Source: Punctularia strigosozonata HHB-11173 SS5
Lineage: Eukaryota; Basidiomycota; Agaricomycetes; Corticiales; Punctulariaceae
Direction of reading: 5' to 3'
DNA length: 64,000 bases
Assembly: GCF_000264995.1 (NCBI RefSeq)
Contig: NW_006767434.1
Location: forward strand, 608,258 to 672,257
A program made the position numbers and the translations under genes. The stretch's first letter is position 1. Every line of letters starts with the position of its first letter. This document shows positions 19,115 through 59,847 of the stretch, piece after piece. The notes below the pieces were generated by a model. It worked only from the letters and a program-made list of their open reading frames with translations, did no database searches and had not been told where the DNA came from.

Positions 19115-20666
19115 TCACTGTCCCGGCACGTGTACACGACAACCCTCAGGCAGGATCAGGACTCCTGGATGCGGGTGCGAGTCATAATCTTGAAGCCACA
19201 CGTCGGGTGTGGGCGGCTGACTGTCCGTAACAGGCGTGATGGGAACAGTAGCGGTAGTCGGCGTACTGCAATCATAATCTTCCTGCGGGGGCATCTTGAA
19301 CTGCAGTCTAGATACATGGGCCGATACCCTCTGCCATGTTTTTACTCAGTTGCCTTTCTCAAGCATATGAGATGAAAAGAAGTACTCGCCTGTTGCGCTT
19401 CCAATAACTCTTGCGGAAATTGCGCTTGGGGAAGCATGAAAAGGCGTTTGTCCTTTGCCATTCCTGCCTTAGCCTTGAGTACGGCAACCTCGCGCTTGAA
19501 CGCCTTTAGATATTCATCCGCTCCTTGCGGCCATACCTTCCCCTCATATGACTGCCCTAGATTGAGCTTCATGTTGGCACCTGGTGAGCGCGACGTCCAC
19601 GGATCTCTCTCGCACCACCCAAGTATCGCACCAGCCGCGAGAACATGCTCAATGCGATGCATGTCCGCCAGCAACAGTTCCAAACACGCCAAGACGCACT
19701 CAGGATCGAGCAGCCTGACGTTGTAGAGTGCACCGACGAACTGAGCGAGGTAGCCTAATGAGCTGACGGCGTCTTCCAGCCTGAAGCGCGTATGACCCAT
19801 AGCAGCAGCTTGTATCGAGGACTCGCTCCGCTGTGCGTTCAATGAGCTCGACAATCAAAGGTGAACCGTTCGAACGAGCGACTCACATGGTAAAACAGAG
19901 CCGCAAACGTAGTCATCACATTGATCTGCAACTGGTGTCGGAATAGGCAGTCCGCGGGTTTCCCCGTTTTTTCCTCCTTCTCCTGAAATCCGGCGTATAT
20001 AATGGCTGCGAATACCGCTGCCTCCTTCGGCGAACCGGTGACAGGATTGGTGGCACGAAGCAGAATTTGCCAGGCAAGTTCGTCCAGCAACTCGACGTGG
20101 GACAGATCCAGTTGAGGTCTTACAATAAGCTTCTTCATCGTGATGGTGGCCAAGAACATGCTGTTGTGTCGTGCTGCCTGTAGAAGTGACAGGGGTTCGT
20201 TAAGGATGGACGACTGAATACGAAGGCCCGAAGCGGTGGCGGAGATGCCCTCGATGAGGTCTCTGTGCCAGACGTGAGCTCTACCATCCCGCATGATGGA
20301 ACTGCGGCGAATGAGAAACTCCTGATAGGGTAGCACGATTGTACGGATGAGCACGTCTGTCAGCTGAGGCCAATTGGCGTATAACCCCCAGCCCGCCATA
20401 TAATCTGCCGACTCGCTAGGGTCGCCTTTGCGAGGCCCCTTGGTCGTCAAGCAGGCGGGTATGTTCGGGGTCGACATGAAAGCGGACTGCATAGGATGAG
20501 GATGCGTTGAGGATGGCGAGGCTAAGCGCATGACTTCAGCTTGCGTCTTGTAGAAGGATCGCCTGGAGAGGTGCAGAGACGGGGGTGTTGACAGGGTCGA
20601 ATGCGTCTTATAGCATTTAAGCGGGCGGTGGCCTGAGTAGCCACAAAGGCCGCACAGTCTTTGCAA
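19115..20666 (-). CDS. MIF4G-like helical-repeat protein, copy 1 (tentative)
   Basis: Exons 19887-20666, 19390-19830 and 19115-19300 give 468 residues. I do not recognise the protein outright. The helical blocks ELAWQILLRAT, FVGALYNVRLLDPECVLACLELLLADM and the tail of that domain resemble the HEAT-type MIF4G domain of eIF4G-like proteins (hydrophobic spacing of 'FIGELFKL..LTE.I...C...LL'), so an RNA- or eIF4A-binding role is possible but unproven. The last intron starts with GCGAGT (GC-AG). Splicing it opens 61 further codons ending QEDY...VPGQ, while retention would stop the protein soon after GCG. The start at 20666 is the first ATG; later Met residues (near 46, 58 and 64) are alternatives. 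A clear paralogue lies directly upstream at 21262-23153. Confidence 0.55.
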
Positions 20667-21261: not shown

Positions 21262-23153
21262 TTAATGCATACTCATTTCACCAACAGCCGACTTCCCCGT
21301 TGGCGAAGGAAAGATGCTGCCCGATTTAGGAGGCACGATCCTCGCGGGCGTGGGCGTGCAAGGGAGACTTCCTCCGCCAGTTGGGACCTCAACGACGGCG
21401 GGAATCCAGCCCGCCTTCACCATCGTCGCCTGGGCCGTCTCCGGGCTGCAGGGCCAGCTCTTGCAGTCGATATCTGGCCGGCTTCCTCTGGTAACACCCA
21501 ACGGTGTCCGGGCGGCCTTTTTCTTTCTGTAATCGGCTCGCGCATATGCAAGAGTCATCGCATCCACCTCCATGAACTGCTTGGCGAACCAGATTCCTAC
21601 ATGCTCTGCAATGTTCTGGGAAGCCCAACCGGGTGTCAACTACCAGTCGCCCGGCCGAATTAGCAAGAAACAACTCACGTGGAATACCTCGTACAATGCC
21701 TGCCTCGTCCATCGACTTCCTCGGAACATACTGCACCCCTGCCACGTACCCGCTTTCAAGGCTAGTTCCTCTACTCGGCCCCGGAGCAGCTTGACGAAGT
21801 CTACTGCGCCGTGCGCCCCCTTCAACCGTGCTCCGACGATATTGTCCAGATGAAATCGCGTCCGCGAGGCCCGCGCTCTCCACACGTCGCGCCCGCAATG
21901 CCGCACGATGCGCTCGACTGCGAGAAGATGCTCCACGTGCGTCATCTCCGCCATGAGGACCTGCAAGCACGCAACGACGCACTCAGCTTTGAGAAATCCG
22001 TAGTTGAATAGCAAGCCGATGAGCGTGCTGATGTGGGCGCCCTTGCGATAGGTCTCCAGGCCATGCACTTCCCCACGCGCACTTATGGTGCGCATGATCG
22101 AGTATCGATTGCCCTGAAGATCGCGTTCTGTCAGCCCAAAGACATGATCAGGTCATGTCAAATGCGAGCACTGACCGAGTACCACTGGGACGCAAAACGG
22201 GTCATCGCGTTGTTCTCCAGTCTTCCCACGAAGTCGCGGGCGACCCACTGTCCTGCCGTTTCAGCTAGCTGGTCGCGCACCGTCTTGGCGAACAGAGCGG
22301 CGGCAAACGGGCGTGCGTGTTGTGTGTCCGTCGCATGCTTGATAAAAGCCCATGCGAGATCGTTCAACGTCTGAGACGACCAATACGTCTCGCTATTGAC
22401 GAGCCGAAGCGCCAGCTTTTTGCACTTGCCGGTGTTGAGCCGAGTTGGTCCAGTTTTGGCGACGTTAGCGCCCGAGGCAAACGCAAACGCGGGGAAGGAG
22501 GTTGGGTTCACCGTGCGTATAGTGATGGCGTGCGAAGCCGCGATCCCAGGGATCATAACCGCTACCCAATCTTCGATCGTCTCCATATTGGTTTGGTGCG
22601 CTGCGGGAAACTCAACGAACGAGGGGCAGTAATCGGCGTCGCTGGCGGCGATGTAGGGCCAGGGAAGGGGCGGAGGTGGAGGTGGAGTGCTGCTAGGGCG
22701 GCAAGCGGAGAAGTCCGGGGGTACGCGACCGTTCGCTCGCAGCCACATGAGACGGGCTTTAGCGGCACGGGGGGAGATGCGTCGGACGCTGAGAGTGAGT
22801 CCCGGAGGCGTCTTCGGCGCACTGGTGGTGTTCACGTTCGGGATGAGGTACCAGCTCGAGGTGGTTGTCGGGACCGACGTCGAAGGCTTCCTCAGTGCAT
22901 GAGTGGCGGAGGCATCTGCGCTGTCGTCAAGACTAGAGCCAGATGTGATACTCTCCGATGACGGGGGTGAAGGAACGTCGTAGGCCCAGGTCCCTTCTTT
23001 CGTCGACGACGTACTAAAGCCCTTGAGCGTCGTAGACAGAGTTGCCGTTTTGAGTAAAATCGAGGTTCCGCGGTCTGTGCCGTCTGTGTGAGTGGAGGAG
23101 AGCATAGCCTGAGGATGCAGAGCAAGATACTGGGACGAGCGGACCCCGAGCAT
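21262..23153 (-). CDS. MIF4G-like helical-repeat protein, copy 2 (tentative)
   Basis: Three exons (22176-23153, 21679-22113, 21262-21639), all joined in phase 0, encode 596 residues. An N-terminal Ser/Thr/Pro-rich region of about 190 residues precedes a helical part that aligns with copy 1: DLAWAFIKHAT against ELAWQILLRAT, and LIGLLFNYGFLKAECVVACLQVLMAEM against the matching block of copy 1. The arrangement of 'LIG.LF...FL..E.V..C...L' recalls MIF4G. The C-terminal exon is Lys/Pro-rich and differs from copy 1. The pair probably arose by tandem duplication. Function unknown; a translation or RNA link is only inferred. Confidence 0.55.
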
Positions 23154-23817
23154 GAGCTGTTAAGTAGACCTAACGCAAAGCAACGGCTTGCGGGGTTCTC
23201 TTGAGCATTGCCCAAGGCGATATGTCAGAAATAAGCAAGGCATTGTAATATATACCAGATGCTGGCCATGGGCCACACTCGTTTGTTTAGGGCGCCACCG
23301 GTGTGTCCCAGATGCCACCGCTCATCGATCATCCAAGGGTATCCGTCGGGTTACAGGCTCATGTGGCCATGTTATAGCAGTCTCGAGGGATCTTCTAGTA
23401 TCCTGAGCTAGATCTGAGTACTCCCGGGTTACGGACTTTAGCACCGTGAGGGAAACAACGCCATGCTGGATGTCGAGCGCAGACAAGAAACCCACGCTTA
23501 TAAGTGGCTGTGCTCTCGGCCGGCTCGGCAGGATTTACCGCGAAAAGTGATCGCGCGCTTTACTCGGTTCACTCTGCTATGGAAACATAGGATTATTCCA
23601 AAGGACGCTTGGATATGGTGCCCAGACATCGGTCTCATGGCTAAATCTCCAGCGGCACGGTATAAAATCCGAACACATTCGCTGCCATCAGTGTCACTTC
23701 TGCTCGTCGTCCGTTCGTTTGCTTCAGCCTGGTGCTCCGGACTGGTTGCCGACACTGTTCCTTCACAAGCCCTTCGTTCGGATACGCAGTCAAATAGAGG
23801 TCGTCTGTATTTTTGAT
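23154..23817. other. Intergenic / promoter of the small secreted protein
   Basis: No coding exon seen. Divergent genes start on either side (MIF4G-like copy 2 to the left, secreted protein to the right). TATAAAAT at 23661-23668 lies 150 nt upstream of the right-hand ATG. Confidence 0.5.
23661..23668 (+). promoter_or_regulatory. TATA box of the small secreted protein gene
   Basis: TATAAAAT, the best match in the upstream region, 150 nt before the ATG at 23818. Confidence 0.5.
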
Positions 23818-25795: not shown

Positions 25796-28700
25796 ATGAA
25801 CGAAGCGTCGCCAGTCACACCAAGCGCGGCGGGCAGATTCGAAGACATCTGGAAAGAAGCACTCAAACAATACAAGGAGCATACTGCCACCTCCCTTCGA
25901 TACGCCATCACAGATGTCGACACTCCGGACAACCTGCTACGGCTGGTCGCGTATGAACACGGAGCCTTCACCGACTATCGAGAGCGAGAAGAGAAGTTGA
26001 GGAGCGCGGTCCGGCCCGTCGTTGGCATTGTCCATCAACTCTCGGAAATCCTTGGTGAAGGTCTATTGGCGGTATGTTCATGCCGTCATCGCTGACAAGT
26101 CGCTAATTTAATGCTGGCTAGAAATGCCCACCAGCAAGAGCAAACTCGGCAGCCATTCGCATTTTGCTGAAGGTCTCCGTCGGGTCTCCTGCTTCCTTGT
26201 CATATCGATAACACTTGTCCTAGACCACGCAGAATGGTCACAGCTATGACGCAGTAATCGAAGTATTCGATTGCCTGCAAATATTTCTCGGGCGACTGGT
26301 AGTTCGTCTAGAGAACCGAATAACGCACGTCGTTCGGACCATCATCGTGCAATTTCTGGCGCAGCTGCTTGCGACACTCGGACTTGTGACGAAGTTGCTG
26401 AAGCACGGTCGCTTAGGTGAGATCATCCAAGGTGTACAACAGCGGAGACGATAATCGTAGTCAGGGTTCTATTTTCGTCGCCTACTCCGCAGGAAGAACG
26501 ACATACTAGAGCTGATGACGAGGTTGGAACGCTTGTCGCAGCAAGAAGTCTCTCTGGTACCGGTTCTGACCCTCACCGCGGTGAACGCCGCCCTAGGGAC
26601 ATTACGGACCATGATACTTTGTGAGTATTCATATCATCGAAACCTTGAATGATGCCTGACTTGTTGTAGCTGGCCAGAAGGATGCAGACGTGGAAGAAGC
26701 CGTGTTAGATACGCTCGAAGAGGAACTGCGCCGACACAAAGGTATGTCCTTCTTCATCTACTATAGCAACATGAATGCTTCTACGTCCTAAATATTTTAG
26801 TCGTAGATCTCAGGCGAGAACTGGGCAGGGAATTATACGATCAGAGCGAGGGCGCGGAAGCAGCACGCCGTACGTAGCATGATCCAGTATGCACATCCTG
26901 AACCCCTGCTTGACCATGGCCATAGATCGTGCGTTCATTCGCCAGATTCAAAACTGGCTCAGCGTGCCGGACTCTTCGTCAAATCATCGGCGGGCATGTG
27001 ATACACGAGATATCGAAACTTGTCAATGGTTTGTGTCGAGCCCAACATTTCGGCAATGGATGAGTGAGAGGTCATACCTTTGGGTCCACGGCCCTCGTGA
27101 GCATGTGGATCTACGTTGGTGTATGGTCTTTCGCTGAGGGATGTTTTAGTGGGTTCCGGAAAGACTATTTTGTGGTGAGTCAGAAATCAACTCTCTTAGA
27201 CACCACTGATCAAACCTATGGGAACAGCTCTGCCGCTATCGAAGCCGCAAAAACGGAATGTCCGACCGGCTCCGCTATCATCTACTTTTATTTCGATTTC
27301 TCTGACAAGGAAAAGCAATCGATCCGAAACCTATTGGCCTCGCTGGTCATGCAGCTCATATGGCTATGCACTTCTCCTCCAGCGGCGGTACAGAGGCTCT
27401 ACGAAACTTGCCGTCGAGGTTTAGATCAACCAGACATCTACTCTCTCGCGTCGACGCTGAGAGAAACATCCCGACTCTTCTCTCATACGTACGTCGTTAT
27501 CGATGCCCTTGATGAATGCCCGCCCCACAATCGCGACATGCTGCTTCGTTTTCTACAATGTCTTGCGGAGCCTCCACTCGATCATGTTCACGTTTTGGTT
27601 ACCAGCCGACCGGAGCCTGATATATCCGCCTGGTTATTGACTACACAGTGGGATGGCATAGACCTCAAAGACACTTTGATTCATCGAGACATCGAGGTAT
27701 ATATTCGAAATCGCTTGCACAGTGAACCCTGTCTTGGAAGATGGGGTGAAAGGGGAAGGGATCTGATCGAGACAGCCATGATCACGGGCGCGCATGGGAT
27801 GTGAGTTCGGAACAAGAACGGAGTCGGAAATCCCGCCGTTGACCGCGGGATACTGACACCTTAATGATCACAGGTTTCGATGGGTAGCATGCCAGCTGGA
27901 CGAGCTCCGGAAATGCCTGAGCACGATATCCGAGCTCAAAAAGGCGCTCGCGGACTTGCCGCCTACGTTGAGTCAAACGTACAAGCGGATCCTAGGCAGT
28001 ATCGCTCCGAGGCACTTAAAAGTCGCTGCCCGAATCTTGCAATGGATCCTGTTCTCTCAAAGACCACTTACACTACGTGAAGTCGCCACCGTCGCGGCCA
28101 TACCCGAAGACGATGAAGAAGAGTACGATTCGGACGACGAACTTCGGGATGAACACGACGTCCTGGTCATCTGCTCGGGCCTGTTGATCGCCATGCCGAT
28201 CACGGAGCTGGATCGTCGCAATCTACCATCTGAGCCCTTGACGCGGCTAGCGTACGAGTACAACGATAACACCTTTCTCGTCCAACTAGCGCACCTATCA
28301 GTGAAAGAGTTCCTGCTATCAGAATGCTCTCCAGAGTTATGTCCCATCGTCAAATCTCCCGCTATCCACGCCGTCATAACGCAAAGTTGCCTGGCCATCT
28401 TTCTTCATATACTGCAGAGCCAGCGTCCACAACTGGTTCACCTTGAGATATGGAAACATCTCACGAAGAGCTTTCCCTTGGTGCCATACGCGGTGCAGTA
28501 CTGGTCTTTCCATTCCGACCTGAGTAAATCTGCAACGACTCCGCGCATAACGCACACTCTCCGGGACGTGTTCGACCCGAACGGAACGCTTCTCGCCCAA
28601 TGGACCGTCTTGTTCTATAATGTCCACGTCTGGGGACGAGCCAAGGAACATCAGGCGTTATACTACGCGTCGTACGAAGGGCTCGAAGACATCGCGGCCT

Positions 28701-30118
28701 GGCTCCTGGCGGAGAAAGGCGCCGACGTCAACTTCCCCGGAGGGGCCCGCGGCACGGCGCTGCACGCCGCGTCGATGCGCGGCCATTGTCGGCTGGTCGA
28801 GTTCCTCCTACAGCGGGGCGCGGACATCCGGAAGGAGGTCGGATATATGACGGCACTGCACGTCGCGGCGGAGCACGGGCAGGAAGAGGTCGTCCGGATC
28901 CTGCTCAGCCACGGCGCCGACATCGACGCCGGGCGCGACCGCGAGGGCACCGCGCTCTACTTCGCGTCCCGCGACGGGCACCGTGCCGTGGCGCGACTGC
29001 TGCTCGACCACGGCGCCGACGTGCAAGCGGGGAACGCGCGGGAGACGCCCTTGCACGCGGCCGCGTACCGCGGGCGCGAGAACATCGTGGACGCGCTCCT
29101 CGAGCGCGGCGCCGACCCGGACGCGAGGAACTTTAAAGGGAACGCGGCGCTGCACCTCGCGCTCGAGGCGGGCCACCTCAAGGTCGTCCACCGGCTCTTC
29201 GCGCAGGGCTATCCGCTCGGCTCGGAGACGCTGTCGGACGCTATGGCGCAGCTCGCCGCGACCGAGTTTGCGACGTTCGTCCGGAGGAGGCTCGATGCCG
29301 CGGCCGCGGTCGACGACGCGGTGGGCGCGGGGAGGTGCTCGTTGCTGTACATGGCAGCGGGAAGCGGGGGCAAGGACGTCGTCGATATGCTCCTCAAACG
29401 CGGGGCGCATCCTGATTCGCGAGGGTACTATGCGCGCTGGGTCGCAGACGGAAGCAGAGAGACGGTGGAGAGCAACGCGCTCCACGCCGCTTCGAGGTCT
29501 TTCGTCGCCGAGATGTCGGACGCTCGTCGTCGTGACCGCGAGGCTGTCATCCGTCTCCTGGTCCGGCACGGCGCAGACGTGGACGCGCTGGAAGACGGTC
29601 TGACCCCGCTCCAGGTGGCGACCGAGCGAGGAGACAGGGCGCTCGTCGCGGTCCTGCTCGAGCTCCGCGCGGATCCGGACGCGCGAGCGTCCCGCAAGCG
29701 CGCGCCGCTCCACATCGCGATCAAGAGGGACAGAGAGACCCTTTACGCCGAGATCGTCCGGCTGCTGCTGGAGAACGGCGCGGACGCGAACGCACCGGGC
29801 GCGGACGGGAGCCCGCCTTTGCACGTCGCGGCGGAGCTGGGGCAGCCGAGGCTGATGGAGCTGCTGTTGCGGCACGGGGCCGACGTGGACAGAAGAAGCG
29901 CGCAAGGGACCGCGCTGCACGTCGCGGTCACCAGGGATTGGCGCGGCGGGCGGTGCGAGGAGGTCGTCAGGATCCTCATCGATCACGGAGCCGATGTGAT
30001 CAGCGAGGACGAAAACGGGTGTAGGCCGCTCTCTTTGGTGACAGCGCGATTGCACGGCCGGAGGATAAGGGAATTGTTGGTTGGGGCAGCCTCGGGAAGC
30101 GCCACGCAGCGCACGTAA
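25796..30118 (+). CDS. NLR-type STAND protein: Goodbye - NACHT - ankyrin repeats
   Basis: Cytosolic STAND NTPase of the fungal NLR class, thought to sense non-self or damage and trigger a response such as cell death. Ten exons (25796-26071, 26122-26172, 26224-26416, 26465-26620, 26670-26741, 26801-26869, 26926-27096, 27150-27174, 27228-27800, 27874-30118) encode 1276 residues without a break. Residues about 14-240 (FEDIWKEALKQYKEHT..., then LGRLVVRLENR) fit the Goodbye N-terminal domain. The P-loop GPLGSGKTIL is near residue 330, Walker B VVIDALDE near 430 and the sensor-like TSRPEPDI shortly after. About a dozen ankyrin units (pattern LHVAAEHGQEEVVRILLSHGAD) run from about residue 788 to 1265, all in the last exon. 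That exon is distinctly GC-rich and repetitive. Exon 8, with the P-loop, is only 25 nt. Confidence 0.88.
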
Positions 30119-34675: not shown

Positions 34676-36895
34676 ATGCCAATGGGAAGCCGTGGACCGA
34701 GCCCGCTGCGCCCGCCATTCACGGCGGCGACGTCCTTCCGCCCCGAAGACGCCCTCTCGCCCCTCGACGAGACGATGCACCCCGTGTTCCACACCGGCCG
34801 CGTCGCGGTCGTCACCGGCGCCGCCAGCGGGATCGGACGCGCCGCCGCGAAAGAGATAGCCAAGTGCGTATATCGAGAGAGCTTCAAACACCCCACGTCG
34901 CCCTCCTCGCCCCCCCCCCTTCGAATCCGATTCCCCGCGCGATGAACATATTGCTAACGTGCGCGCAAAAATCACAACAGGCTCGGGATGAAGGTCGCGC
35001 TCGCGGACGTGAACGCGGCCGGGCTCGAGTTCGTCGCGGCGGAGGTCGCCGCGATCCAGAAGACGCTCCCGCCGCACGCCGCGCCGGGCCCGGGCCACAT
35101 CGTCGTCCCGACCGACGTGAGCAAGCTCGAAGACGTCGTACGCCTGAAGGAGCGCGTGTACGAGACCTGGGGCGAGGTGAGCAGCGCTCTCTTTCCCGTT
35201 CCGCACCGCCCGGCGCGCACGCCCGTGACACCACCCTCTCCCCCCCCTTCCCCTTGCCCCCCTGCCCTCTGTGTGTGTCTCTCTCGCTCGCTCGCCCGCG
35301 GACCGGCCACCATGCGTGCGATCGCGTGATCTCGCATCCCTCCTCCTCCTTCATTCCGGGGGACAATGCGAAACGGGCGAAATGCGGTTCAACGCCGTTG
35401 TAGGTCGCGGTGCTGTTCAACAACGCCGGCCTGGGCACGATCGACGGCAAGAAGGGCACGTCGTGGGACGGCCTCGACGTCTGGCACAAGGTGTTCGATA
35501 TCAACGTGTTCGGGATCGTCAACGTCCAGCAGACGTTCGTGCCCGTGCGTAATCGTCTCGCTCCCTATAGTTTAGTAGTGTACAGCACGGGTGCGCCCCC
35601 ACTTACGCTCGCCGCCCGCGCTTCCTCAACACAGTTGATGCTCCACCAAGAGAACCAGTCCGTGATCATCAACACCGGATCCAAGCAAGGCATCACCAAC
35701 CCTCCGTGAGCCCGGGACCAAAACCGATCTTGAACCGTCCCGTTCCAAAGAAAAAACAAAACCGGAACTGACGCGCTCGTTCGCAGGGGTAACGCGGCCT
35801 ACAACGCCTCCAAGGCCGCGATCAAATCCCTCACCGAAGGGCTCGCCGCCGAACTGCGCGACCTGCCCGCCCAGAACCTGACCGCCCACCTGCTCATGTA
35901 CGCCACCCCCCCCCNNNNNNNNNNNNNNNNNNNNNNNNNNNNNNNNNNNNNNNNNNNNNNNNNNNNNNNNNNNNNNNNNNNNNNNNNNNNNNNNNNNNNN
36001 NNNNNNNNNNNNNNNNNNNNNNNNNNNNNNNNNNNNNNNNNNNNNNNNNNNNNNNNNNNNNNNNNNNNNNNNNNNNNNNNNNNNNNNNNNNNNNNNNNNN
36101 NNNNNNNNNNNNNNNNNNNNNNNNNNNNNNNNNNNNNNNNNNNNNNNNNNNNNNNNNNNNNNNNNNNNNNNNNNNNNNNNNNNNNNNNNNNNNNNNNNNN
36201 NNNNNNNNNNNNNNNNNNNNNNNNNNNNNNNNNNNNNNNNNNNNNNNNNNNNNNNNNNNNNNNNNNNNNNNNNNNNNNNNNNNNNNNNNNNNNNNNNNNN
36301 NNNNNNNNNNNNNNNNNNNNNNNNNNNNNNNNNNNNNNNNNNNNNNNNNNNNNNNNNNNNCCCCCCTCCTTCTCCCTCCTCCTCCCTCCCCCTCCCTCCC
36401 CCGTCTCCCCCATCTCCCGTCACCCACCTCCCTTCCTCTCACACTCACACTCACACTCATTTCCCGGAACCCGAACTTTTTTTTTCCCAGCCCCGGCTGG
36501 ACGCACACCGGCTACGGCTCCGCGCAGGGCGACACCGCGCCCGACCACCGGCCCAAACCCGACGGCGCCTGGTCGCCGGAAGAGACGGTGCTCTACATGC
36601 TCGACCGCGTCCGCGTCGGCGAGTTCTACATCCTCTGCCCGGACAACGAGACCCGGCCCGCGCTCGACCATCTCCGCATCATGTGGAGCGCCGGAGGTCA
36701 GCGATTTCCCTCCTTCCCCCCCTGGCTTTGCGCCTTTCTTTTTTTTGCTTCGTCCGTTGTCGCTGATGATCAGGTTTCCTACGTTCTACGTTTGCAGATA
36801 TCACGGAGAGCAGGCCCGCGCTCAGTCGCTGGCACCCGACGTACAAGAGCTTGTACGAGGAGTACATCCGGGACGGCCTCGCCTCTCTCGATTGA
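34676..36895 (+). CDS. Short-chain dehydrogenase/reductase
   Basis: Classical SDR using NAD(P). Seven exons (34676-34863, 34981-35176, 35404-35544, 35635-35705, 35787-35897, 36491-36696, 36798-36895) encode 336 residues. TGAASGIG is at residues 47-54, NNAG in exon 3, the catalytic Ser in INTGSK and YNASK at about 204-208; IPGWTHTGYG follows the active site. The 446-N gap lies wholly inside intron 5: the exon ending HLLI joins PGWTHT in frame across it, so the protein is complete. A Pro/Ser-rich N-terminal extension of about 35 residues precedes the Rossmann fold, and an internal Met at residue 34 is an alternative start. Substrate unknown. Confidence 0.87.
35915..36360. other. Assembly gap of 446 N
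   Basis: C runs on both sides, inside intron 5 of the SDR gene. Confidence 0.95.
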
Positions 36896-42982: not shown

Positions 42983-44162
42983 ATGCCTCGCCTGGGTCCA
43001 GCGCTGCGAAGGTCCGGCGGGAAAATCGTTCCCGCCATTCTCCCAACGCTGGACTTGACGAATCCGAATGACAGGGAGATCGCCAAAAAGTGGCACGTCA
43101 TTGCGGTGTGCAGAGTGTTCCTTGCCTCGCTCCTCGCTTATCTTGCGGTGTATCACCACCATACTGACCCTGTTGTCCCAGTTTGATATGCGTAAAACGG
43201 CGAAGAGGTACCTGCACCCAGGGAAGAAGCTGGCAAGTCAAGATCCGGATGCCGTCGATAGGTACATAGCCAAAGTTAGGCTCGCCTTTTCTCTGCCAGG
43301 AATGTCGTGCTGCGATCGCTCACCACGTTCATCATCCTGCAGCTGTGCGAGCAGTACCCTTTCTTCCGTCGGTACGACGACGCATGGCCCATTCGCAACT
43401 ATATCGGGCAGCATCTCGAGAACCTTGTCCACGAGAACAGACATAGACAATCGGCGCGCTGGAGAAAGACTCTTCTCATGCGCCATGTCGGGTACAAACA
43501 ATTTGATCTAGGAACTCCGGGGCCCGGTCCCTCTAAAGCGCGTCGACGTAAGAAACGACCTGCTCAAGATTTCATTGATCTCAGCATGGATACCGACGAC
43601 GACGACGACGACCCGGTCTTCGCGCGGCTGCAAGCCCAGAACGCGAGTTCCTCCTGTCGTACATCCGATCCGTCTTGAATCGCTTTCTCTAGGCTACCTC
43701 GAGCATTAGTGCGCCTCCTGCGACGAGTCATGAACGTTCGGCGGGCCCGTCATCCGTGGGCGACACGCGGGAGTCTCTCTTCGACACACATTTGGACCGG
43801 GATCCCCATTTGCTGTCAACTGCACGCGAATCGGACCCCATCGCAGCGTTTTTGACCAACCTAGAGGTCTCGCTCCTCCATCTGCGAGTCGTCCTGGGGA
43901 AGCTCGGTATCGAGGGGAGGGTGAGTCCATCCGCAGGGGAACCAGTAGGACTATACGAAAGCCCAAATGTACTTCCTTTCCTTAGACCCAGCTCGACGAT
44001 CTCTGCGGTTGGGAAGTGGACGAGCGGAACGCCTGGCTGGACAAGCAACTCCGTCCGCAGACGCTCGGCGTGATCACGCCGTACGAGCTGCGGGTGATCA
44101 AGACGGCGATGACGAGACGAGGGCGCTATCTGAAAGATGCAAACAAGGAGAACGAAATGTAA
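42983..44162 (+). CDS. Array family protein, copy A (basic patch + SUMO-interacting-type motif)
   Basis: Unrecognised family. Exons 42983-43105, 43182-43274 (93 nt), 43343-43642, 43693-43920 and 43986-44162, all phase 0, give 306 residues. Exon 2 begins FDMRKTAKRYLHPGKK and exon 3 CEQYPFFRRYDDAWP, both shared with copies B-D. Near residue 148 a basic patch (ARRRKKRP) is followed by DFIDLSMDTDDDDDD, the layout of a SUMO-interacting motif beside a nuclear localisation signal. The C-terminus (AAFLTNLEVSLLHLRVVLGKLGI, then LDDL..W...ERNAWLD and ITPYELRVIKTAMTRRGRYL) is conserved in all copies and looks helical. Intron 3 begins GCGAGT (GC-AG); the GT donors nearby leave the wrong phase. A nuclear, SUMO-linked role is inference. 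Confidence 0.72.
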
Positions 44163-44501
44163 TTTTTTTCCCCGCTTATGACTCCGTTCCCTGCTCCAAA
44201 TGAGTCTATATGTAATTTTGCTCTGTAATCTTCCGTTGTGCCTTGTCGTCGCGCTCTCACCGGACCGCTTGCGGCGCGTCGCGTCGCGCTTAGACACGAA
44301 CACGTGAGCGTGATTCCGAGAGGGTCCCATCAAGGCTCATCAAGGTGCCTCTCCAGCACCCTGGCATGCCCTTCGATCATCTGATGGCTCTGCGGTGCCC
44401 CCGGAGGTCTACGCGCCTGCATTCCTACCGCGACTCATATCGAAGCCAAGTCATTACCCATAAAATCCCGCTGACCACAGCTCCTCTGGTGACGATCCTC
44501 A
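44163..44501. other. Intergenic, copy A to DUF4246 copy 2
   Basis: 339 bp between head-to-tail genes. No coding exon or repeat seen. Confidence 0.5.
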
Positions 44502-46600
44502 ATGGCGGGTAGCACAACGTCTCCGGCGCTCGAGAGCGGCTTGAAGGCTTTTGGCGACCGCTTTCCGCACCCGTTCACGACCAACAATGAGCTGGGTTAC
44601 GGAAGCTTGACGCTGCCGGGCAGGGATCGACCGAGGACGCTCGTGGAGCTGCTAATGTGCAAGCTTTCATCGACGATACGAGAAAAGCCGAGATGGCACG
44701 AGAAGTTCCAGGACCCGGCGGTTCAGCAAAAGTGGAGGGAGGAGGTTCTTGAGCAGCAAGGGGTGTCGGTGCCCAGAAACCTAGCGTTGACGCCAAATAT
44801 GGTAGAGTTTGCCATGCAGGTTGCTCATACGATTCTGACACGAAGGCTACAGATCAACTATGTGCTCGGGGAATTGACCGCATACGCGTCATTGAGGGAT
44901 CCCGAAACGGGGATAGAGGTGCGTTTGACACAATGTCATGACTGAAGTAGTCACCTGCAAAGGACTAACGTTGACCGCAGGTAGGCCCCTACGACCGCAT
45001 TTGGAAGTCGGATGAGCTGGTACCGGAGGACCTCCGCCTCGAGCTCCTGGATGCGATCTCTCCGTTGGAGAACGTGCCCGAAGATGAGAGGGACTGGCAT
45101 CCCCGTTCCAATGGTCAGGTCCTCGACCTAGTTCATCCATCCCTGTACCCGATCGTTTACGGTACGACCTTTGACACTTCCGGAAACCGGGTGCGTGCCC
45201 CGGTTCCAGAAGGCGATGCAGAGGAAGAGGACGGATTCCTGTCCGAATTATTTCAATGGATACCTTCCGACTTTGCCTTCAAAGAGGACAAGAGGACCAT
45301 AGAGCTCGTCTCGCCATACATCAACAACGTCCACCCGTCGGACCACAAGAAACTCTACGATGTCATCCCGAAGCTGCTCGAGAGAGCCGTGCCCATGTTC
45401 GACCGGGTGTTGTCGGACCTACGAAGGGAGATCGAGTTGCCGTTCAGAGTGGGGCCCAGCAATGGACCTGATTGTATTTGGCCGGGAGAGGCAAGCGTTT
45501 CCACCCTCCTTATGATTTGCTACCATCGCTGACGAGCATCATCCTGATAGGAAAACGTATATGGCGAAGATCTTGATTGGAACAATCTGCATTGGCCTCT
45601 GCTCTCTACGCATGAACTCAGGTTTCCCGACGCGCCCTCCGAGTACAACGGTGGCTTGGACGACGTAAAGCTCACCGAGCACCTATCCAATTGGAGGGGC
45701 TTTCAGGTGATTGTTAAGCTTGCAAACATAATGCTCACTCCGGAGAAACCTGCATACGAAGGGGGTAGTTGGCACGTGGAAGGCGAGCATCGGGACACTA
45801 GTTCTCTTCTGATATGAGGGACTGATGCTGTAACTTCCAGGCATGAAGAACGAAAGCATAGTTGCCTCCTTCATATACGTGAGTGCTTCTTGTGCAAATG
45901 CATATGAACGTGAGCACGCAGCTGAGGGTCTCCCTGTCAGTATTACGACTCCGAAAACATCACGGAATCTAGTCTCGCCTTCCGAAATGCGACGGCTGAG
46001 CCGGACGACCATCATCAGCACGACTTCGAATGCATGTGGCTCCTGTACAAATACAAGCAGTGCATGACTTTCAGTCCACTTGTTTTCTGTTAAGGCGCTA
46101 AATGATTTCTAGGTGGGAAGCTACCTCTCAGGAGATCGGTGAAATCCCGACGAAACAGGGACGCACGATCGCGTTCCCGAACATTTACCAGCACAACGTG
46201 GGCAAATTCGAGCTCATCGAAAAGTCGAAGCCGGGGCATCGCAAGATATTGGTCTTTTTCCTCGTCGACCCCACAACGACCGTGCCCAGCGCCTCTACGG
46301 TGCCCGCACAGAGGAAGGACTGGATCCAGCGCGCCGTCGTCGAGGCTACGGCAAACCCGAGATCGCTGTGGTCAAGATTGCCTGCGGAGATTATCGACAT
46401 GATTCTGGAGTACGTATACTCTTATGCGATATCTTCGGAAGATGCGGTGCGGATTCGGGAGGAGTTGATGAATGAGCGCACTCAATTCGTCGAATTCGTC
46501 GATGGCCAACGGTTTAACCACCCTTTCAATCTGTGGTATGCCCTTTCAGTATTATCATTGATGCATGTCCGCTCACTGCTTTTCCACCAGTGAGCATTGA
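44502..46600 (+). CDS. DUF4246 protein, copy 2
   Basis: Paralogue of 3716-5803. Exons 44502-44801, 44853-44918, 44981-45490, 45551-45782, 45841-45878, 45941-46059, 46113-46535 and 46591-46600 give 565 residues ending CEH. Exons 2, 3, 5, 6 and 8 have exactly the same lengths as in copy 1 (66, 510, 38, 119 and 10 nt). WHVEGMKNE, FPNIYQHNV and KPGHRKIL are kept, so the possible H-x-E, His and Arg ligand set is intact. Two introns are GC-AG (45491 GCAAGC and 45783 GCGAGC); the second sits at the same place as the GC-AG intron of copy 1. Intron 1 (51 nt) is stop-free and in frame. The gene lies inside the array of the A-D family. Confidence 0.87.
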
Positions 46601-47045
46601 TATGACGGAGATTATACTCTACCTATTGGTGGATGTGCCATGTATAGGGTATTGATGCTCATGCCCGATATCAAAGCCCGGGAAGCTTGAAACAAAGGCG
46701 CTCCCTCAATTTATAGAAGTGACAAACGTATTCCACATGCACATCACTGCGGACTGGCATATCGTCACTGTACGAAACCTTTCCTCCCGGTCTCCAGCTC
46801 AAGTCGACCCTTTCGTCTACCGGTGCAACAGTATGAGACGCGCAGCTTGCCGTACGTGCACGTGTTAAGGCGCGTTTCGTTTACGTCTCATCGCGAAGGT
46901 TGTGCGAACGTAAGAGCCTAAGAGGGCGTCGTAGCATCTTCGATTCTCATGTTCTATAACCTAATGTCATGTTGATTCAGGCATGCTATATCTATCCGAC
47001 ATCGGTAATGCAACCGTTGACTTTTCCCTCCCTCTCAGAGCTAGG
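46601..47045. other. Intergenic with a relic of the array family
   Basis: Upstream of copy B. It holds a decayed exon-1/exon-2 copy, listed separately; the rest shows nothing. Confidence 0.5.
46655..46870 (+). pseudogene. Relic of the array family (exon 1 and exon 2)
   Basis: An ATG-containing start (MPDI... / SKPG with an indel) leads to ADWHIVT and a GTACGA donor at 46770, matching the exon-1 ends ENWHHIT (B), KKWHVIA (A) and TEWHAMT (C). After about 60 nt an acceptor CAACAG is followed by YETRSLPYVHVL, matching exon-2 starts such as YEMRIAARKHL of copy B. Frameshifts and stops interrupt it and nothing resembling exons 3-5 follows before the live copy B. It is a truncated extra copy. Confidence 0.65.
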
Positions 47046-48178
47046 ATGCAGGCTCTCATTCCGAGGCCTGAGATACGCTGGCGCCCGTCGATGCCTCCAC
47101 CAATGGACTCAACGGATCCTGCATACCAGGGCCTCGTCGAAAACTGGCATCACATCACCGTAAGTCGCTCGAATACATCGACGGAGGTTCGCGGTGTATC
47201 CTATCACGCCAATCGTTATTCGCCAGTACGAAATGCGCATTGCGGCGCGTAAACATTTACGTCCGTCGACGAGGCTCAGAGATCAGGACCAGGCAGCCGT
47301 CGACGCGTGCGTCGTTGATGTGTGTTGTCCGTTGAGCTAGAATACACGCGACGACTGCTTACCTGCCCACTTTCTCGCAGATCTGCAAATCATATCCCCT
47401 CCTTCGTCGCTACGATGGCGTGTGGCCCGTAGAGGACTACCTCGACCAGTACATGTGCAATATGAAGTCCAAGAAGGGGTATCCAAGTTTCTGGAGAAAA
47501 CCGTACCACAAGCGATATCCCGGATCTTACAATCCGCACCGTCACCCGCCTTCCTCTCGTCCTGATCCATCAAGGCGCACAACTGTCCGTCGCAAGAGAC
47601 AGATCACGGAGGACTTCATCGACCTCACCCACGGTTCGGACGATGAGCCTGATTCTGAGAATCGACGAACACAGAATGTCGGTTCCCTACGTAATCGATA
47701 TGATGTCAAACTCAACTCACACTCTTCCAGGCGGCCTATATGGGTCGTGGAGAATCATCTCGTTCGTCGTACACCTCACAGGCACGCACCCCCCTTTCGG
47801 ATAGGTTGCTTAACAGGATCCCGGTTACGCTCCCCTCCTCCTCTACGGATGCCATCGCTGCATTCCTCGAAAATTTGGAGGTATCGTTTGGCCATCTCGG
47901 GGCTGTTCTCAAAAGCCTTGGTGTAGTCGGAAAGGTGCGCACAGACAGGTGCCAACCAAGACGGGTGTCTTGTTTATATCAGTGTTCTTAACCAGGCCGA
48001 GCTCGATGATTTGGCGTGCTGGGAATCGGTCGAGCGCGACTGCTGGCTTGACCAGGAACTCCGACCGCAGACACACGGCGAGATCACGCCTTACGAGTTG
48101 CGGTTAATCAAGACGGCACTCACGAGGAGAGGGCGATATCTAGAAGATAGCGGGAAGAGAAAGCAGCGCGTAGAGTAA
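47046..48178 (+). CDS. Array family protein, copy B (basic patch + SUMO-interacting-type motif)
   Basis: Exons 47046-47159, 47227-47319 (93 nt), 47381-47677, 47731-47934 and 47996-48178 give 296 residues. The N-terminus MQALIPRPEIRW is followed by ENWHHIT at the end of exon 1. Exon 2 is YEMRIAARKHLRPSTRL and exon 3 starts CKSYPLLRRYDGVWPVEDYL. A His/Pro/Ser/Arg-rich linker leads to the basic patch TVRRKRQ and DFIDLTHGSDDE at about residues 147-158. The C-terminal module (IAAFLENLEVSFGHLGAVLKSLG, then ITPYELRLIKTALTRRGRYL) is closest to copy A. All introns are GT-AG and phase 0. No known domain recognised; function unknown. Confidence 0.72.
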
Positions 48179-48455
48179 TCAACGAATTGTCTGTCACGGA
48201 ATCTTGAAGACATCAAAGATGGTCCATTCATTATCTGTGTCCGTGTTGATTAAGCGTAACGCGTGGCACGTGCCCGTGTTTTTCGCCTCACGAGCGCGTC
48301 GCTTGTTGAATGACACCCGCGGTCATGTATCACGAAAGGTGGAGATGGTTTCCACTCGGCCGACGAAGAACCGGGAGCTTATCGTAGCCCGATGAAGTGA
48401 CCTTTCTTCGCTCTCCCTCTCGGTGTCCATTGACGCTGCATCCCAGTCAACAGTG

Positions 48456-49788
48456 ATGCCCGACTTGATCCCTAAACCGGACCCTCAAACGGTCAAATCG
48501 CGCTGGTTGAGGGACATACTTGAGGAGTTGAACCCGGATTTCCCCACCGAATGGCATGCTATGACCGTGCGCGGAGCACCTCTCCCCCCCTCCACGCGCA
48601 TACGAGATAATATTTTCTCCGCAGTATAAGATGCGTGTGGTGATACAAAAGCATCTTGATCCGAATAAGTCGATGGGGCAGCAAAACAAGGACGCCGTCG
48701 ACCAGTGTGCAAAGGAGGTCAGATTATTCATGCTCGTGTTGCTTCGTCGTGCCTCTTGTCGGGACAGGCGCGCGTGCATTGCACACACGTTCAGGGCAGG
48801 CGGCTTGCTTACTACGTTTGTTCCAGATATGCGAACAGATCACGTACTTTCGACAGTTCGAGGGCGCTTGGCCTACTCTGCTGTATATGGAGCAGTACAT
48901 CGTCCACAACAAGGGGAAGAATAGAATTCGCGGCGATCTGTCCGGTCCATGGCGTGAACCCCGGTTGGCTCGCAACCACATACACGAGAAACGCCGCCGA
49001 CGCCGGTCGTCGTTCTCGCCGTTCAAGTCTCCGAAACCCATTCGACGCGTGGTCATGCCAGCCGCGGCGAAGACCCAGAGCGACTTCATTGACCTCACAA
49101 CGGATTCGGACGACGAATCAAGGGGCACTGCCAGCTGCAGCGCGGCCGCTCCCCGGCGCCGGAGCCTCAGCCCGCTTCGGACCAGGAGTCGCAACGTCGC
49201 TCGTTCGGGAGCCTCTGGCCTGACAGCAGTCGACGAAGACGTCAAGGTCAGTTACCCCGTCGTGCAAGAAGTACCCTACTGACCGCTCCGTGCTTTGCAG
49301 CCCTCTATCAGTGCCCCTCCAGCCCTGGAAGGTAAACGGCGGCCCGTTCGCCCGTTCGTAGGCAAGCCCCGGTCGCCCCCCGCTCCGTACCGCCCCATTG
49401 GAAGTTCCATTGGTGGGCCTTCGCAACCGGCATCAGCCCGTGCGAATCCAGTGCAGGCGTTCCTGGGCAATCTGGACGTGCCAATGGGTCATCTTTACCC
49501 CATATTTCACGACTTGGGCATACGTGAGCAGGTCAGATGTTCAACATCTCTCTGTCTGCATGCTGCCACTCTGAAAGTACATAGCGCTGACATCTTTCTG
49601 CCCAGGCTGCCCTTGACGAGCTCGCGAGATGGGACGCTAGCGAGCGCAACGCTTGGCTAGACGGCCAGCTTCCGTCGCGCGAGGAACAGGGCAAAATCAC
49701 TCCTTTTGAAACACATGTTGTGAAGAGGGCTTTGATGAAGCGCGGAGAATACCTCAGAGCGTCCGATAAAGAGAACAAGGCCCCATAG
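48456..49788 (+). CDS. Array family protein, copy C (basic patch + SUMO-interacting-type motif)
   Basis: Exons 48456-48566, 48625-48717 (93 nt), 48827-49246, 49301-49531 and 49606-49788 give 345 residues, the longest of the set owing to a bigger exon 3. The N-terminus MPDLIPKPDP ends exon 1 with TEWHAMT, and exon 3 opens CEQITYFRQFEGAWPTLLYMEQY. The strongly basic KRRRRRSS and later PIRRVV patches precede SDFIDLTTDSDDES near residue 155. Exon 4 carries a Pro/Arg-rich linker and QAFLGNLDVPMGHLYPIFHDLGI; exon 5 carries LDELARWDASERNAWLD and ITPFETHVVKRALMKRGEYL. It is closer to D than to A and B in this C-terminal part. Function unknown. Confidence 0.72.
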
Positions 49789-50157
49789 GTCTCAATAGTC
49801 GAGTTAACTTGCATGTATTGTTCCGTCTGCCGTTATTTCTGTGCTTGTCTTGTACGGTATCGATGTTTATTTTGATCTGTTCTCTTGATTTCACTTTTTT
49901 CAACTATCGCTTGGTGTAGGATTTTGGATGTCACGCGTACGAGAAGCCGCACGTGCGCGTTACGAGACGTGTATCCGCCGACCAGAAGTGGTGGTGTGTA
50001 ATAGGCGTGCGCCATATGTACGTATACGTACATTCGATGGCTACTATTCCCACTCGCCGTGTCGATACATAAGATGATGGATCTCCTTTGTCACCACCAC
50101 TCACGGGTCGTCCATCCCTTCCACAGTTCCACCATTGCTGTAGCGGTGACTCGGACC
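49789..50157. other. Intergenic, copy C to copy D
   Basis: 369 bp, no coding exon seen. Confidence 0.5.
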
Positions 50158-51359
50158 ATGTCCGAGTTGATCCCAAAACCACAGAACAGAAAGTCGAGAA
50201 AGCCGCAAAAGACGCCGCCCTCGCTGACGGATATACTGGACCAATTGCACGATGAAATCATTGACAACTGGACTACGATAAGCGTGCGTAGGCTGGAATA
50301 CGACTTCGTGCTACGATCGTGGAATGACCTGCCTTTTGTCTAGTACGATATACGCAGGACCTTGCAGAAACATTTGGACCCCGAGAAATTGATTTCACAG
50401 CAGGATGCAGCTGCTATCAACGCGTGCTTGGATGATGTCAGTAAGAGCCACGTATGCGGTAACATGCACACCCATTTAACTACTACCGCGCGCAGATTTG
50501 TACACAGTACCCAATTTTTCGACGTTATGAGGACGCGTGGCCTGCATGCCAATATGTGGAGCAGTACCTCTTCTGGAATTTGACGAAAAATCGGCTTCAA
50601 GGCCAAGCTTGTCGTTGGAGGCAGACAATGTTGATGTGCCACCGCTCATACCCGTCATACCGGAGGCGCATCAGACTATCGTTAACAACGAGGCGCCCCG
50701 TCCGCAGTTGTCGGAAATTAGATACTATCACCCGGAAAAGAAGTCAAGCCGAATCTACGGACTCGAATATCGCAGACCGTGCCGAGAACGAATCGAGCGC
50801 TGCGCCGCGTCTACAGGGGACTGATCCGCCTCAGGAAGAGGTGCGTACTCGGGAATATCCTTCCTCATCGCAAGGAAATCTGAGAATGCGCTTCAGCAAC
50901 TTTCCGTGAGTGCTCTGCCGACTTTGGGTTCGAACAATACGCGACGACATCTGCGGGCTTATGTGGGCAAACTTCGACCATCCCCGTCTGCCTTCCTGCC
51001 TCGGGGCAAGTCGACCGCTTCGGAGGGTGCAAGCTTAAGTGCAGATGCGGTCGACATATTTCTGAGCAACCTGAACGTCCCTATGAGTCATCTCTCCGGC
51101 GTTTTCCACGGGCTGGGCGTTTCCGATGAGGCTAATCTGAAAGTTCAGAACTACAACCTGTCGCTGATGCTCTTCCCCGTAGGCCCGGCTGGATGAATTG
51201 ACCCGGTGGGACGCCATCGAGCGGAACTCCTGGTTAGATGCGCAACTCCTTCTGGGAAAGTGGGGCGAGATCACTCCCTTTGAGTTGCAGGTGGTGAAGC
51301 GGGCCCTGATCCAGCGGGGAGAATGGCTCGGGATGTCGGAGAAAGAACATGTCGTCTAG
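50158..51359 (+). CDS. Array family protein, copy D (no clear SUMO-interacting motif)
   Basis: Exons 50158-50283, 50344-50436 (93 nt), 50496-50840, 50897-51130 (or 51142) and 51183-51359 give 324 or 328 residues. MSELIPKPQN opens exon 1, NWTTIS ends it; exon 2 is YDIRRTLQKHLDPEKL; exon 3 opens CTQYPIFRRYEDAWPACQYVEQY. The rest of exon 3 is Arg/Ser-rich, but the DFIDLT-acidic block is absent; only KLDTITRKRS stands near its place. The C-terminal module is intact (VDIFLSNLNVPMSHLSGVFHGLGV, then LDELTRWDAIERNSWLDAQL). The last intron uses either a GC donor at 51131 (52 nt) or a GT donor at 51143 (40 nt). Protein sequence alone does not decide. Confidence 0.65.
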
Positions 51360-55607: not shown

Positions 55608-57272
55608 GGTTTTTCAAAGCGCGGTTGAGCAAGAGGAGAGGGTCGCGATGTGTCCCGTTACAGCGTCCGATGGTATATGCAGCTTGAGCTCGTCCACTGA
55701 TATGGCGGTCATCGGTACCCCGGATGGCGTCAGAGAAGTGCAGGAGCACGAATGTCTTTGCATTGACAACTCTAATCAAGCGGCGGGTGCCCTGTAAGTG
55801 CGTCGGCCGAGATCGTGCTTAGGTTATATCTGTGCACCATGTTGTTGAGAGCGGGAGTATGGCGCGAGCAGCACGTACGCCTGGCCAGCAGAGCTCGACG
55901 TCGTTGCAGCAAACCAGTATAGCAACGATGTCGGTGAGTCACCGGATTTGGCCGATATTGTGTGGAAAAGTCCCTCGGCTCGTGATATTTGGTCAAATTC
56001 TGCAGTTTGCCTAACCCTCTACCTTTGCGTAATCTTGTCAAGTCCACGGATACCTGCTCTCATTGGCCGCTAGTATTGCGTCGAAATCCTGGCGCGGTAG
56101 GCGATGTAATTTCGAACTCCCCATAGGGGAAGGAGTTGGTTTCACCTCCGCCAATTAGGGATCGGTTATTCCAAGCACATCAAGCTCGTGCGTTTAGACC
56201 AGAACACAGGTACCGTCCATTATTGAACTATAATTTAGCTTCGGCAAGGTCCATTCTAGGAAAATACACGAAAAGTGCCTCATGTTTCGCCCCACAAAGA
56301 TTGCCGACCCACGGTAGTCTCGGGCGGGGCAGATTGAGCACCACTTTACTACCGTTGGTACGTACATGTGGCAAAAAGCCTTGACGGTACCACTCTGCCA
56401 CCATTCTGCTGCTAATCTGCGCGACAATCATAGCCCAACAACTTAGCTTGTTATTGAACCATCTACGTATTTCGTCGTGCGAGGATTTTTCATTTTTACC
56501 ACCATCTCGAGACCGAATACCATGTTGACCTTGCTCCATTGAAGATGAAACCTGCTTCATGGCTAGCTTCAACGCCGAGTGCACGTGGGCCGGTCGCAAC
56601 GCTGATCGTACACGTCGCACGAACTCACCGATGTTCCAAGTCAGCGCAACAGCAGCGACGGACAATTCCGCGCCTCGGTGTTTGAACCCACTCTGAACCT
56701 TGGCTATCTCGAGCTTCTTGAACAGGCCGTGCGTACGTACGACTGGTGGCGTTTTTATCGGACTAGCCGGCGCACGCCGTCTGCATCTGACGTGCCGCAC
56801 ACTCTAGGTTCATGCTGTCAGGAATTTTAGTGCGGTCTTCTACTCCGGCTTAGCGCAATCTGAGTTGCCGTTTTATCTCGACCGATGATGGAGAACAACA
56901 AACTTGAATTCAGTGGCGTCGCCACTGGCCACTATTCAGGTCTCCGAACATGAAACGATGTTTATGTCCCCTTCACGACTTATATTCCTCTGGTCGCGTT
57001 GTCGATTCGAAACCGTGTACTTGAACGAACCTTGATATGATTTCCATGGCCGGTACGCCCATCCCAACCCCGCGCTTCATGCTCTTATAATTCGTCTCCC
57101 ATTCAGATTCAACAAAAGCGACTACCGCGAACTCCCAGTTCTGTAATGTACACAGGGAATCAGGCGAGCTTGGTGTTGTGAACAATGCAACGTGTGTACA
57201 GCGGTAACAGCAGAAGAGGTGAGTGTACAGAGACCAGCGATACGTACTACTTACATCATCCAGTCCAGGAAG
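55608..57272. other. Intergenic, one doubtful ORF
   Basis: About 1.66 kb between divergent genes. A 190-codon frame at 56228-56800 (-) has a fairly protein-like composition (SVAAVALTWNIGEFVRRVRS) but matches nothing I know and has no splice partners I can join. It may be a gene remnant. Confidence 0.35.
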
Positions 57273-59847
57273 ATGGCCAATCCTGACTCCCACAGCCTGG
57301 AAACATGCACTGAGCCTGACAACATGCTACATGACCTCGGCGTCCGGCTCCGGGCACAGTTTGAGGAGATCGGGAGTATGGTAGACCTAGATGCGGCCAT
57401 CGGTGTCCATCGAGTGTCTCTCAAGCTTCGTGTGGAAGGAAACCTTCTCCGATGTTGGTCCTTGCGCGAGCTGTCGCTCTGCCTTGCGCACCGCTTTCGT
57501 CGCACAGGGAACGTCGCCAATCTCACTGAAGCACTCGAAGTCTGCAAGGAGCAGGTCAGTATAGCACCTCCGGTCATGTCCGGGCTTTGCGCTCGTCAAC
57601 TCGCAGAGTTGCTTCACATGCGGTCAGAATACTCGTGCAGCCCTGAAGACCTGGAAGAGGCCGAGCACGTCTTGGACGAGAACTTTGATCCCTGGGTAGC
57701 CGCCGATGCATCCCATGTCGCACTTGACGTTGACTTCCTGAGGTATTGCTCCGCGAGGCGCCTCGGATCTCCGGCAAACATCGAAGAGACGATATACGCA
57801 CTGCGCCAGAAGCTATCTCAGCATCCGACAGAGAAGTGGATCTACCAGTGCTGGCTCGGACTGGCGCTACGCGACCTCTTCGCACGGGTCGGCCTCCGCG
57901 AAGATATTGACGAGGCGGTCAAAATGTCGTGCGCCGCTGTTGCCGCATGTCCCGCCCGACACGTTTCTCGTTCGCTCGTCCTCAGGCAGTGCTCACTGGT
58001 GCTAGTAGCGCGATTTCGCGCCTTTCAACTCGAGGAAGACGCACGGGAGGCCGTAAGGATCCTCGTGACCGTGCTCAAGATGCTCCCGCTTGGACATGGG
58101 GAACGCCATCGATGCCTGGCAGAGTTGGCACGCCTGTTGCTCGACGAGGGCTCGCCTGTCTACGATGTGGGCGAGGCATTAGGTTTTCTGTGTCAGGCAG
58201 TGGAGGATACATCCGGCAGCCCACGCAGGCGCATCGAGGATACCGTGCGGCTGCTTAACGTGATCAAACGCAGGTCGGGCATGGACGCTCCCGCGAACGA
58301 GGCACTTGTGCGCGTATATATCGGCGGAGTCGGGCTGATGGTGGACGCGGCGTCGGACGTCGGTTGGACGCCGGAATCGAGACTTCGCGCTTTGCTATCC
58401 TCCGATGCGCTGCCCGCGGAGGCGGCAGCGCACGCTTTCAGGTCGCTTCACCAGCAACTTGCGATATATCTACTCGACCGAGGGAGAGCGTCGGTTTGGG
58501 CTTGTACCGGGGGTGAAGTAACGCAAAAGAGCCACGATTTGAGGGGTGTGGTCGCATTTCAGGCACAGCTGGGGAGCTCGTTGGTGCCCAAGGAATACGC
58601 GGATATATCCTTGGCGGCGGAAAGGGGCCCCGTGGTGCTGCTCCTCGAGAGCGAGGCGGCGTGCTTTGCGATTGTCATCAGGTCGCCGACCGATCAACCG
58701 CGGCAGGTACCCCTCGCGTCTGCTTCTTCCAAAGAGCTGGGGCATGTTAGGTCCTCCTGGGAGAACATTGCCCGGCGAGCATATGGAGATATCCAGAATT
58801 CAGTCGCCATCACCGGTGATGTGGGCGGTGCCAGAATTATGCCCCTCATGGCGCAGGACTCAAGTGCGGACGAGGAGCTCGTGTCGATACTGGAGAATCT
58901 GTGGTGGATGGTCGTTCAGCCGGTTGTGCACGCGCTGGGTTTGAAGGCGAGTAAACTAAACGAATGGCATTTCCGTCTTTGCCTGACCAGTGAGTTCCGC
59001 AGAGAAGCAGCGGCCGCACACGGCCTCGCGTATGGTGATGCCCTACGGGAAAATTCAGCTTCTTGCCCCTTCATGCTGCCGGTATTGGAGATTACCAATG
59101 CAGCGACTACATGGTGTCTTCGTATACCCCGACACTCGCGGCATTGGTTGACGCTCGCAAGTCTTACAGATCCCGGGGATGTCATGACCCCGGAGGGACT
59201 AGAATGCTCCTGACCGGCGTGGCGGAACCCAAGCAGGGATGGACAGATCTGGCGCTCGTGGCGGACGAGCTTACGGAGGTCGCGAACGCCGTCCCGAACA
59301 CAGTATCTGTCTCGCTGGCCCCGTGCGCGGACCCGAGCACGATCTTGGATCTCTTTCCGCGCGTGCAGATCTTCCATATCGCCTGCCATGCGCGGCAGGA
59401 TCTGGTCGAGCCACTCGGAGGCGGGCTCGTCGTGCGAGACGGGGTGGTGACCGTGAAAGAGCTTGGCGCTTTGCACGCCGACGACGGGCTACTGGCTTAC
59501 CTCTCTGCCTGTGGGACCGCGAGGGGCGACCCCGGACAACCGAACCAGACTATCCACCTTGCCACGGCGGCGTTGCTCGCCGGTTTCAAGAGCGTTGTCG
59601 CCACCATGTGGTGCGCATCATCATCCTCTATGTTCTTTATGGTGCCCTGAACTAGTATAACAGGGATATGGACGACGGCGATGGGCCTGTCGTTGCGGGC
59701 GCGTTCTACCGCGCGCTGTTTCGAGACGGAACGGTGGAGCTTGATCTCGACGCGGTGCCGTATGCGCTAGACGAGGCCGTTCGAATGTTGCGAGGGGCTG
59801 GGGTGTCTCCGATGCGCTATGCGCCCTACATCCATTTTGGCATCTAG
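57273..59847 (+). pseudogene. TPR-type CHAT (caspase-like) protein with an in-frame TGA
   Basis: Helical TPR-like repeats followed by a CHAT protease domain, the caspase-related clan CD fold. Exons 57273-58950, 58995-59610 and 59664-59847 give 825 codons before the stop. Leu/Ala-rich repeat helices (SLRELSLCLAHRFRRTGNVANLTEALEV) fill roughly the first 400 residues. The CHAT part has FLPLHAAG, the catalytic His in FHIACHAR, the catalytic Cys in AYLSACGTA and VVATMW..DGP. The block before FLPLHAAG reads RVW-stop-CPTG: TGA at 59036-59038 stands where CHAT proteins usually have the second Trp of WWCPTG. Everything after it is still in frame and conserved, with both catalytic residues intact. So the lesion is young, an error, or recoded. 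The 57273 start is the best ATG, but an upstream exon is possible. Confidence 0.75.

Follow-up and report, generated by a model that had tools for sequence, protein, structure and literature searches.

Among described systems, the SUMO-interacting motifs (SIMs) of Daxx (IIVLSDSD) and PML bear the closest likeness to the gene family reported here. According to a review, both have a short hydrophobic core followed by acidic and phosphorylatable serine or threonine residues (PMC8616421). The same review gives the SIM consensus as an hhXh core with flanking acidic residues or phosphoserines and names the first core residue as I, V or L; it also warns that many matches are non-functional (PMC8616421). 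The consensus is a loose one. Flanking serines in an acidic context are CK2 targets according to a second paper (PMC12751080). The family shares the core and the acidic, phosphorylatable tail with Daxx and PML, but Pfam and PDB sequences give only chance-level matches to its two conserved modules, so there is no homology to either protein, and SUMO binding is here a prediction. Fungal genomes commonly contain gene families that match no domain, and these usually remain untestable. Like other unnamed lineage-specific fungal families, the present one is multi-copy, partly tandem and domain-less, with diverged and partial copies; it differs from them in a fixed 93-nt exon 2 (10/10 modelled members) and in a SUMO-interaction-type motif (8/10).

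We analysed a window of 64,000 nucleotides (contig C2, positions 608258-672257, in a 33.57-Mb genome of 32 contigs), in which an unrecognised family had been predicted as a tandem array of four plus-strand copies. Its fungal origin is taken from that prediction, from the intron-rich genes and from the presence of DUF4246. The rebuilt models of these copies, A to D, have five exons and four introns apiece and translate without a stop after splicing. They are given here in window coordinates, together with the one gene found among them.

42983-44162, plus strand: gene A, spliced model, 297 aa; exons 42983-43105, 43182-43274, 43343-43615, 43693-43920 and 43986-44162; exon 3 end uncertain (weak donor GTCTTC)
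44502-46690, plus strand: DUF4246 (PF14033) gene; ends approximate, by eye; Pfam matches at 44975-45529 and 46102-46590
47046-48178, plus strand: gene B, spliced model, 296 aa; exons 47046-47159, 47227-47319, 47381-47677, 47731-47934 and 47996-48178; exon 3 end uncertain (weak donor GTCGGT)
48456-49788, plus strand: gene C, spliced model, 345 aa; exons 48456-48566, 48625-48717, 48827-49246, 49301-49531 and 49606-49788
50158-51359, plus strand: gene D, 324 aa, without the SUMO-interaction-type motif; exons 50158-50283, 50344-50436, 50496-50840, 50897-51130 and 51183-51359

The stop-free models bear out the four five-exon copies of the original prediction, as do exon-level HMMs run over both strands of the window, which matched exclusively at the places of A to D. 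All 20 of the 20 exon hits scored 41-114, values inflated by the inclusion of A to D in building the HMMs, against a next best score of 7.5 in the window and a best score of 7.7 in the reversed-sequence control. The predicted phase-0 introns were likewise recovered (16/16 modelled introns), though at the exon 3/4 junction this is partly by construction because the weak intron-3 donors of A and B were picked to preserve phase 0. Exon 2 measured exactly 93 nt in all four genes, as expected, and the same length extends to every modelled member of the family. The sequence blocks that had been quoted were all found: [YF][DEK][MI]R, an exon-3 start with FRRY..WP, LDxLxxW..ERxxWLD and ITP[YF]E. The array itself held only in part, as B, C and D form an uninterrupted tandem run and the DUF4246 gene separates A from B. 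Intron 4 of D (donor at 51131) carries GC at the homologous donor position, or else GT 12 nt further on; the sequence of this donor region is similar to that of intron 4 of C.

The proteins contain two conserved modules separated by a fast-changing linker. Exons 2 and 3 encode the N-terminal module, in which R, L, Q, WP and Y are invariant, and the end of exon 4 together with exon 5 encodes the C-terminal one. Both are under purifying selection: in 10/10 gene pairs tested (45 possible), pS exceeded pN in both domains, as for coding sequence. Values of dN/dS were 0.15-0.32 for the N-domain (computable in 4/10 pairs) and 0.15-0.50 for the C-domain (6/10), the other pairs being saturated at synonymous sites; for the linker they were 0.34-0.75, below 1, in the four computable pairs. 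Genes A to D thus look like real, old coding genes.

A Pfam match for A to D had been named as a possible refutation of novelty. For D the search returned a single match, below threshold (E 0.58), and for the other three genes none. With the 11 N-domains and the 11 C-domains as queries, Pfam gave chance-level matches only (best E 0.035 and 0.12, respectively), NCBIfam and PADLOC had no match for A to D, and the best E among PDB sequences was 0.18. The family is therefore unrecognised, as originally described, in Pfam, NCBIfam, PADLOC and PDB sequences, none of which gave an above-chance match, and within these libraries the searches support an undescribed family. In viral and prokaryotic contigs a pattern matched 51 and 56 stretches, none of which tblastn confirmed as a relative. 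A literature search with little subscription coverage returned no paper containing both 'Agaricomycetes' and 'SUMO-interacting motif', and wider searches gave nothing recognisable as this family among the matches listed; such coverage cannot establish that the family is absent from print.

Beyond A to D the family is dispersed, with six further copies modelled and three more that are diverged, broken or partial, so that the whole family lies on four contigs. These counts are lower bounds, since the copies were found by single-protein genome searches that scored the best candidates only.

Contig C2, ~600.7-603.9 kb: copies F1 and F2, modelled
Contig C2, ~727-728 kb: copy E, modelled
Contig C2, ~1244 kb: copy I, diverged, perhaps broken
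Contig C2, ~1248 kb: copy I2, diverged, incompletely modelled
Contig C1, ~4477 kb: copy H, modelled
Contig C12, ~597-600 kb: copies G1 and G2, modelled
Contig C9, ~76 kb (stretch L042, 2600-3150, minus strand): copy J, N-terminal module alone

The copies outside the window were assembled from whole-codon exon peptides, so phase 0 is there by construction; homology on both sides backs junctions 1/2, 2/3 and 4/5 only. F1 has one additional intron, in the linker. The G2 model lacks exon 1 and includes a 30-nt third intron that is in frame and perhaps no intron. The ten-member alignment and all counts over ten refer to A to D, E, F1, F2, G1, G2 and H and exclude I, I2 and J; J was included in the N-domain alignment and I2 in the C-domain alignment. 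In a midpoint-rooted tree G1, G2 and H formed a group (95/93) to which F1 was adjacent (98/96). A second group comprised C, D and E (93/91), and the placement of A, B and F2 was not supported. Translated ORFs, compared by eye, indicate that the other copies sit among different neighbours. What had been proposed as an 'undescribed system' is a multi-copy family on four contigs with differing neighbours and not a multi-component locus.

The strongest functional clue, which the original prediction overlooked, is a SUMO-interaction-type motif in the linker. The pattern [FVL]I[DN]L[STV]x[DG][ST][DE][DE] describes it in eight of the ten modelled members.

43571-43612, plus strand: motif of A, FIDLSMDTDDDDDD, core block FIDLSMDTDDD
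47615-47647, plus strand: motif of B, FIDLTHGSDDE
49085-49120, plus strand: motif of C, FIDLTTDSDDES, core block FIDLTTDSDDE
Outside the window: F1, LIDLSRDSED; F2, VINLVSDSDEE; G1, FIDLSCDTDDE; G2, VIDLSRDSDEE; H, FIDLSGDTDDE

Gene D is without the motif and E has a degenerate form (LIDANEDADGE), yet both conserved modules are kept in each. Since E groups with the motif-bearing C (93/91), two losses of the motif are probable, one in D and one in E. The stretch that holds the diverged copies I and I2 gave no match to the pattern; counting these two, the motif is present in 8/12.

The linker is the least conserved part of the protein, and the motif stands out within it. Mean pairwise linker identity before and after the motif was 0.19 and 0.18 over all ten members (0.21 and 0.16 among the eight carriers), compared with 0.40 for the N-domain and 0.38 for the C-domain, whereas the 12-residue motif block reached 0.59 among the carriers and 0.47 over all ten. 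Residue shuffling scored with a looser pattern gave a mean of 0.012 per ten members and a maximum of 1 in 20,000 rounds, odds that are post hoc because the search pattern was drawn up after the motif had been seen. Among 219,984 six-frame residues, from the window and six stretches chosen for holding family copies, the pattern occurred eight times, always in the family; in the window alone (127,996 six-frame residues) the three occurrences are those of A, B and C. A hydrophobic core of the hhXh or hXhh type is present in 8/10 members, with F as the first hydrophobic residue in five of the eight carriers. All eight have a run of at least four D, E, S or T residues within three residues of the core, a feature that is part of the searched pattern. 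By composition, the share of disorder-promoting residues is 0.70-0.80 in the linkers, against 0.59-0.64 in the domains. A second linker block, R[PA][YF][VI]GK, is found in C, D, E and F2 (4/10 against 0.005 by shuffling, post hoc).

Our preferred reading, held tentatively and at slightly less than an even chance, is that the family arose by tandem and dispersed duplication and encodes non-enzymatic SUMO readers in which two unnamed domains flank a SIM-bearing linker. The linker SIM would dock in the groove of SUMO on sumoylated proteins, which are probably nuclear, and CK2-type phosphorylation of serine or threonine in the acidic tail would strengthen this docking. Through binding of the flanking modules to partners or among themselves, the protein would bridge SUMO-marked complexes. 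D and E, with modules kept and motif absent, would act independently of SUMO or as antagonists. The analysis establishes the genes, their exon architecture and copies, the coding constraint, the conservation of the motif and a SUMO-like gene in the genome; what we infer is the fold, the binding of SUMO and of partners, phosphorylation, disorder and location. A nuclear location is weakly supported by nuclear-localisation-like runs in 5/10 linkers, against 2.0 by shuffling; a general nuclear-localisation signal, considered on the same counts, was too weak to retain. A further and rather unlikely extension is that a lineage-specific set of SUMO readers, made of two undescribed domains, is expanding, with paralogues that carry the motif and paralogues that lack it next to one another in one array, as with C and D. 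Should paralogues pair with one another, a reader that lost the motif would become an antagonist. One conserved motif turns a domain-less family into a directly testable SUMO-binding hypothesis, with the motif-less paralogues as natural controls. A correct reading would point to SUMO readers that expanded in one lineage and to two new domains, whereas an incorrect one would leave just another uncharacterised fungal family.

Instead of binding SUMO, the motif might serve as an acidic target of CK2 or as some other short docking site in a family of ordinary lineage-specific scaffold proteins, which we regard as the less probable reading but one of real weight. The tail consists of consecutive D, E, S and T residues and would by itself suit CK2, and the motif is missing from two linkers whose domains are kept. 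In 8/10 members, however, the acidic tail is accompanied by the conserved hydrophobic core [FVL]I[DN]L, which a plain CK2 site would not need.

The genomic distribution bears on whether the family was derived from a mobile element, an origin that would explain dispersed copies and fragments. Copies do lie on four contigs, some of them diverged or partial, and in J exon 1 runs into exon 2 with the intron absent, a stop following soon after. Nevertheless, intron positions are constant across the modelled copies, Pfam finds no transposase or integrase domain in A to D, and the repeats around these four genes, the region searched, are either short or simply the gene copies. We therefore consider this origin very unlikely. 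A candidate dead exon-1 remnant near 46755-46774 (TADWHIVT before GT) was dropped, its exon-1 HMM score falling within the noise.

The C-terminal module could also be a SAM-type oligomerisation domain, which would make the family a set of SAM-domain scaffolds. The spacing of its hydrophobic residues is reminiscent, by eye only, of the five-helix SAM bundle of known SAM-domain scaffold proteins. Against it, none of 11 C-domains matched a SAM family in Pfam, and hhalign gave a probability of 1.9% against a profile of only three SAM sequences, from the same genome. The SAM-like assignment, plausible by eye, was set aside, and we judge it quite improbable.

The remainder of the window contains further genes. 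A second DUF4246 (PF14033) gene lies near the left end (4186-5001), about 40 kb from the first and on the same strand. An NLR-like gene at 27064-30115 encodes an NPHP3_N/NACHT domain with a long series of ankyrin repeats after it, and at 59039-59647 a CHAT domain follows an open frame of 688 aa in which Pfam finds nothing (region 57147-59647). Fast-evolving fungal arrays near NLR-like genes are sometimes involved in self/non-self recognition or programmed cell death. Such a role for this family, suggested by the NPHP3_N/NACHT-ankyrin gene (27064-30115) and the CHAT-domain ORF (59039-59647) in the same window, is very unlikely, since the surroundings of other copies differ (judged by eye on their translated ORFs), linker dN/dS (0.34-0.75) is below 1 in the four computable pairs, and Pfam searches found no recognition domain. 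On the minus strand, adjoining open regions at 19342-20666 and 21640-23159 are similar by eye; three frames scanned against Pfam gave no match, and one frame searched against the PDB gave no convincing match. No structured RNA was found in the window at gathering scores. Runs of N, masked or unresolved, occupy 9408-10157 and 35915-36360.

A SUMO reader would act on SUMO-marked proteins, and PF11976 matches above cut-off are present in the genome. The exons in the stretch L048 we take, from reading by eye, to encode SUMO. Elsewhere, four consecutive PF11976 matches at C1:1293791-1294640 probably represent a polyubiquitin gene.
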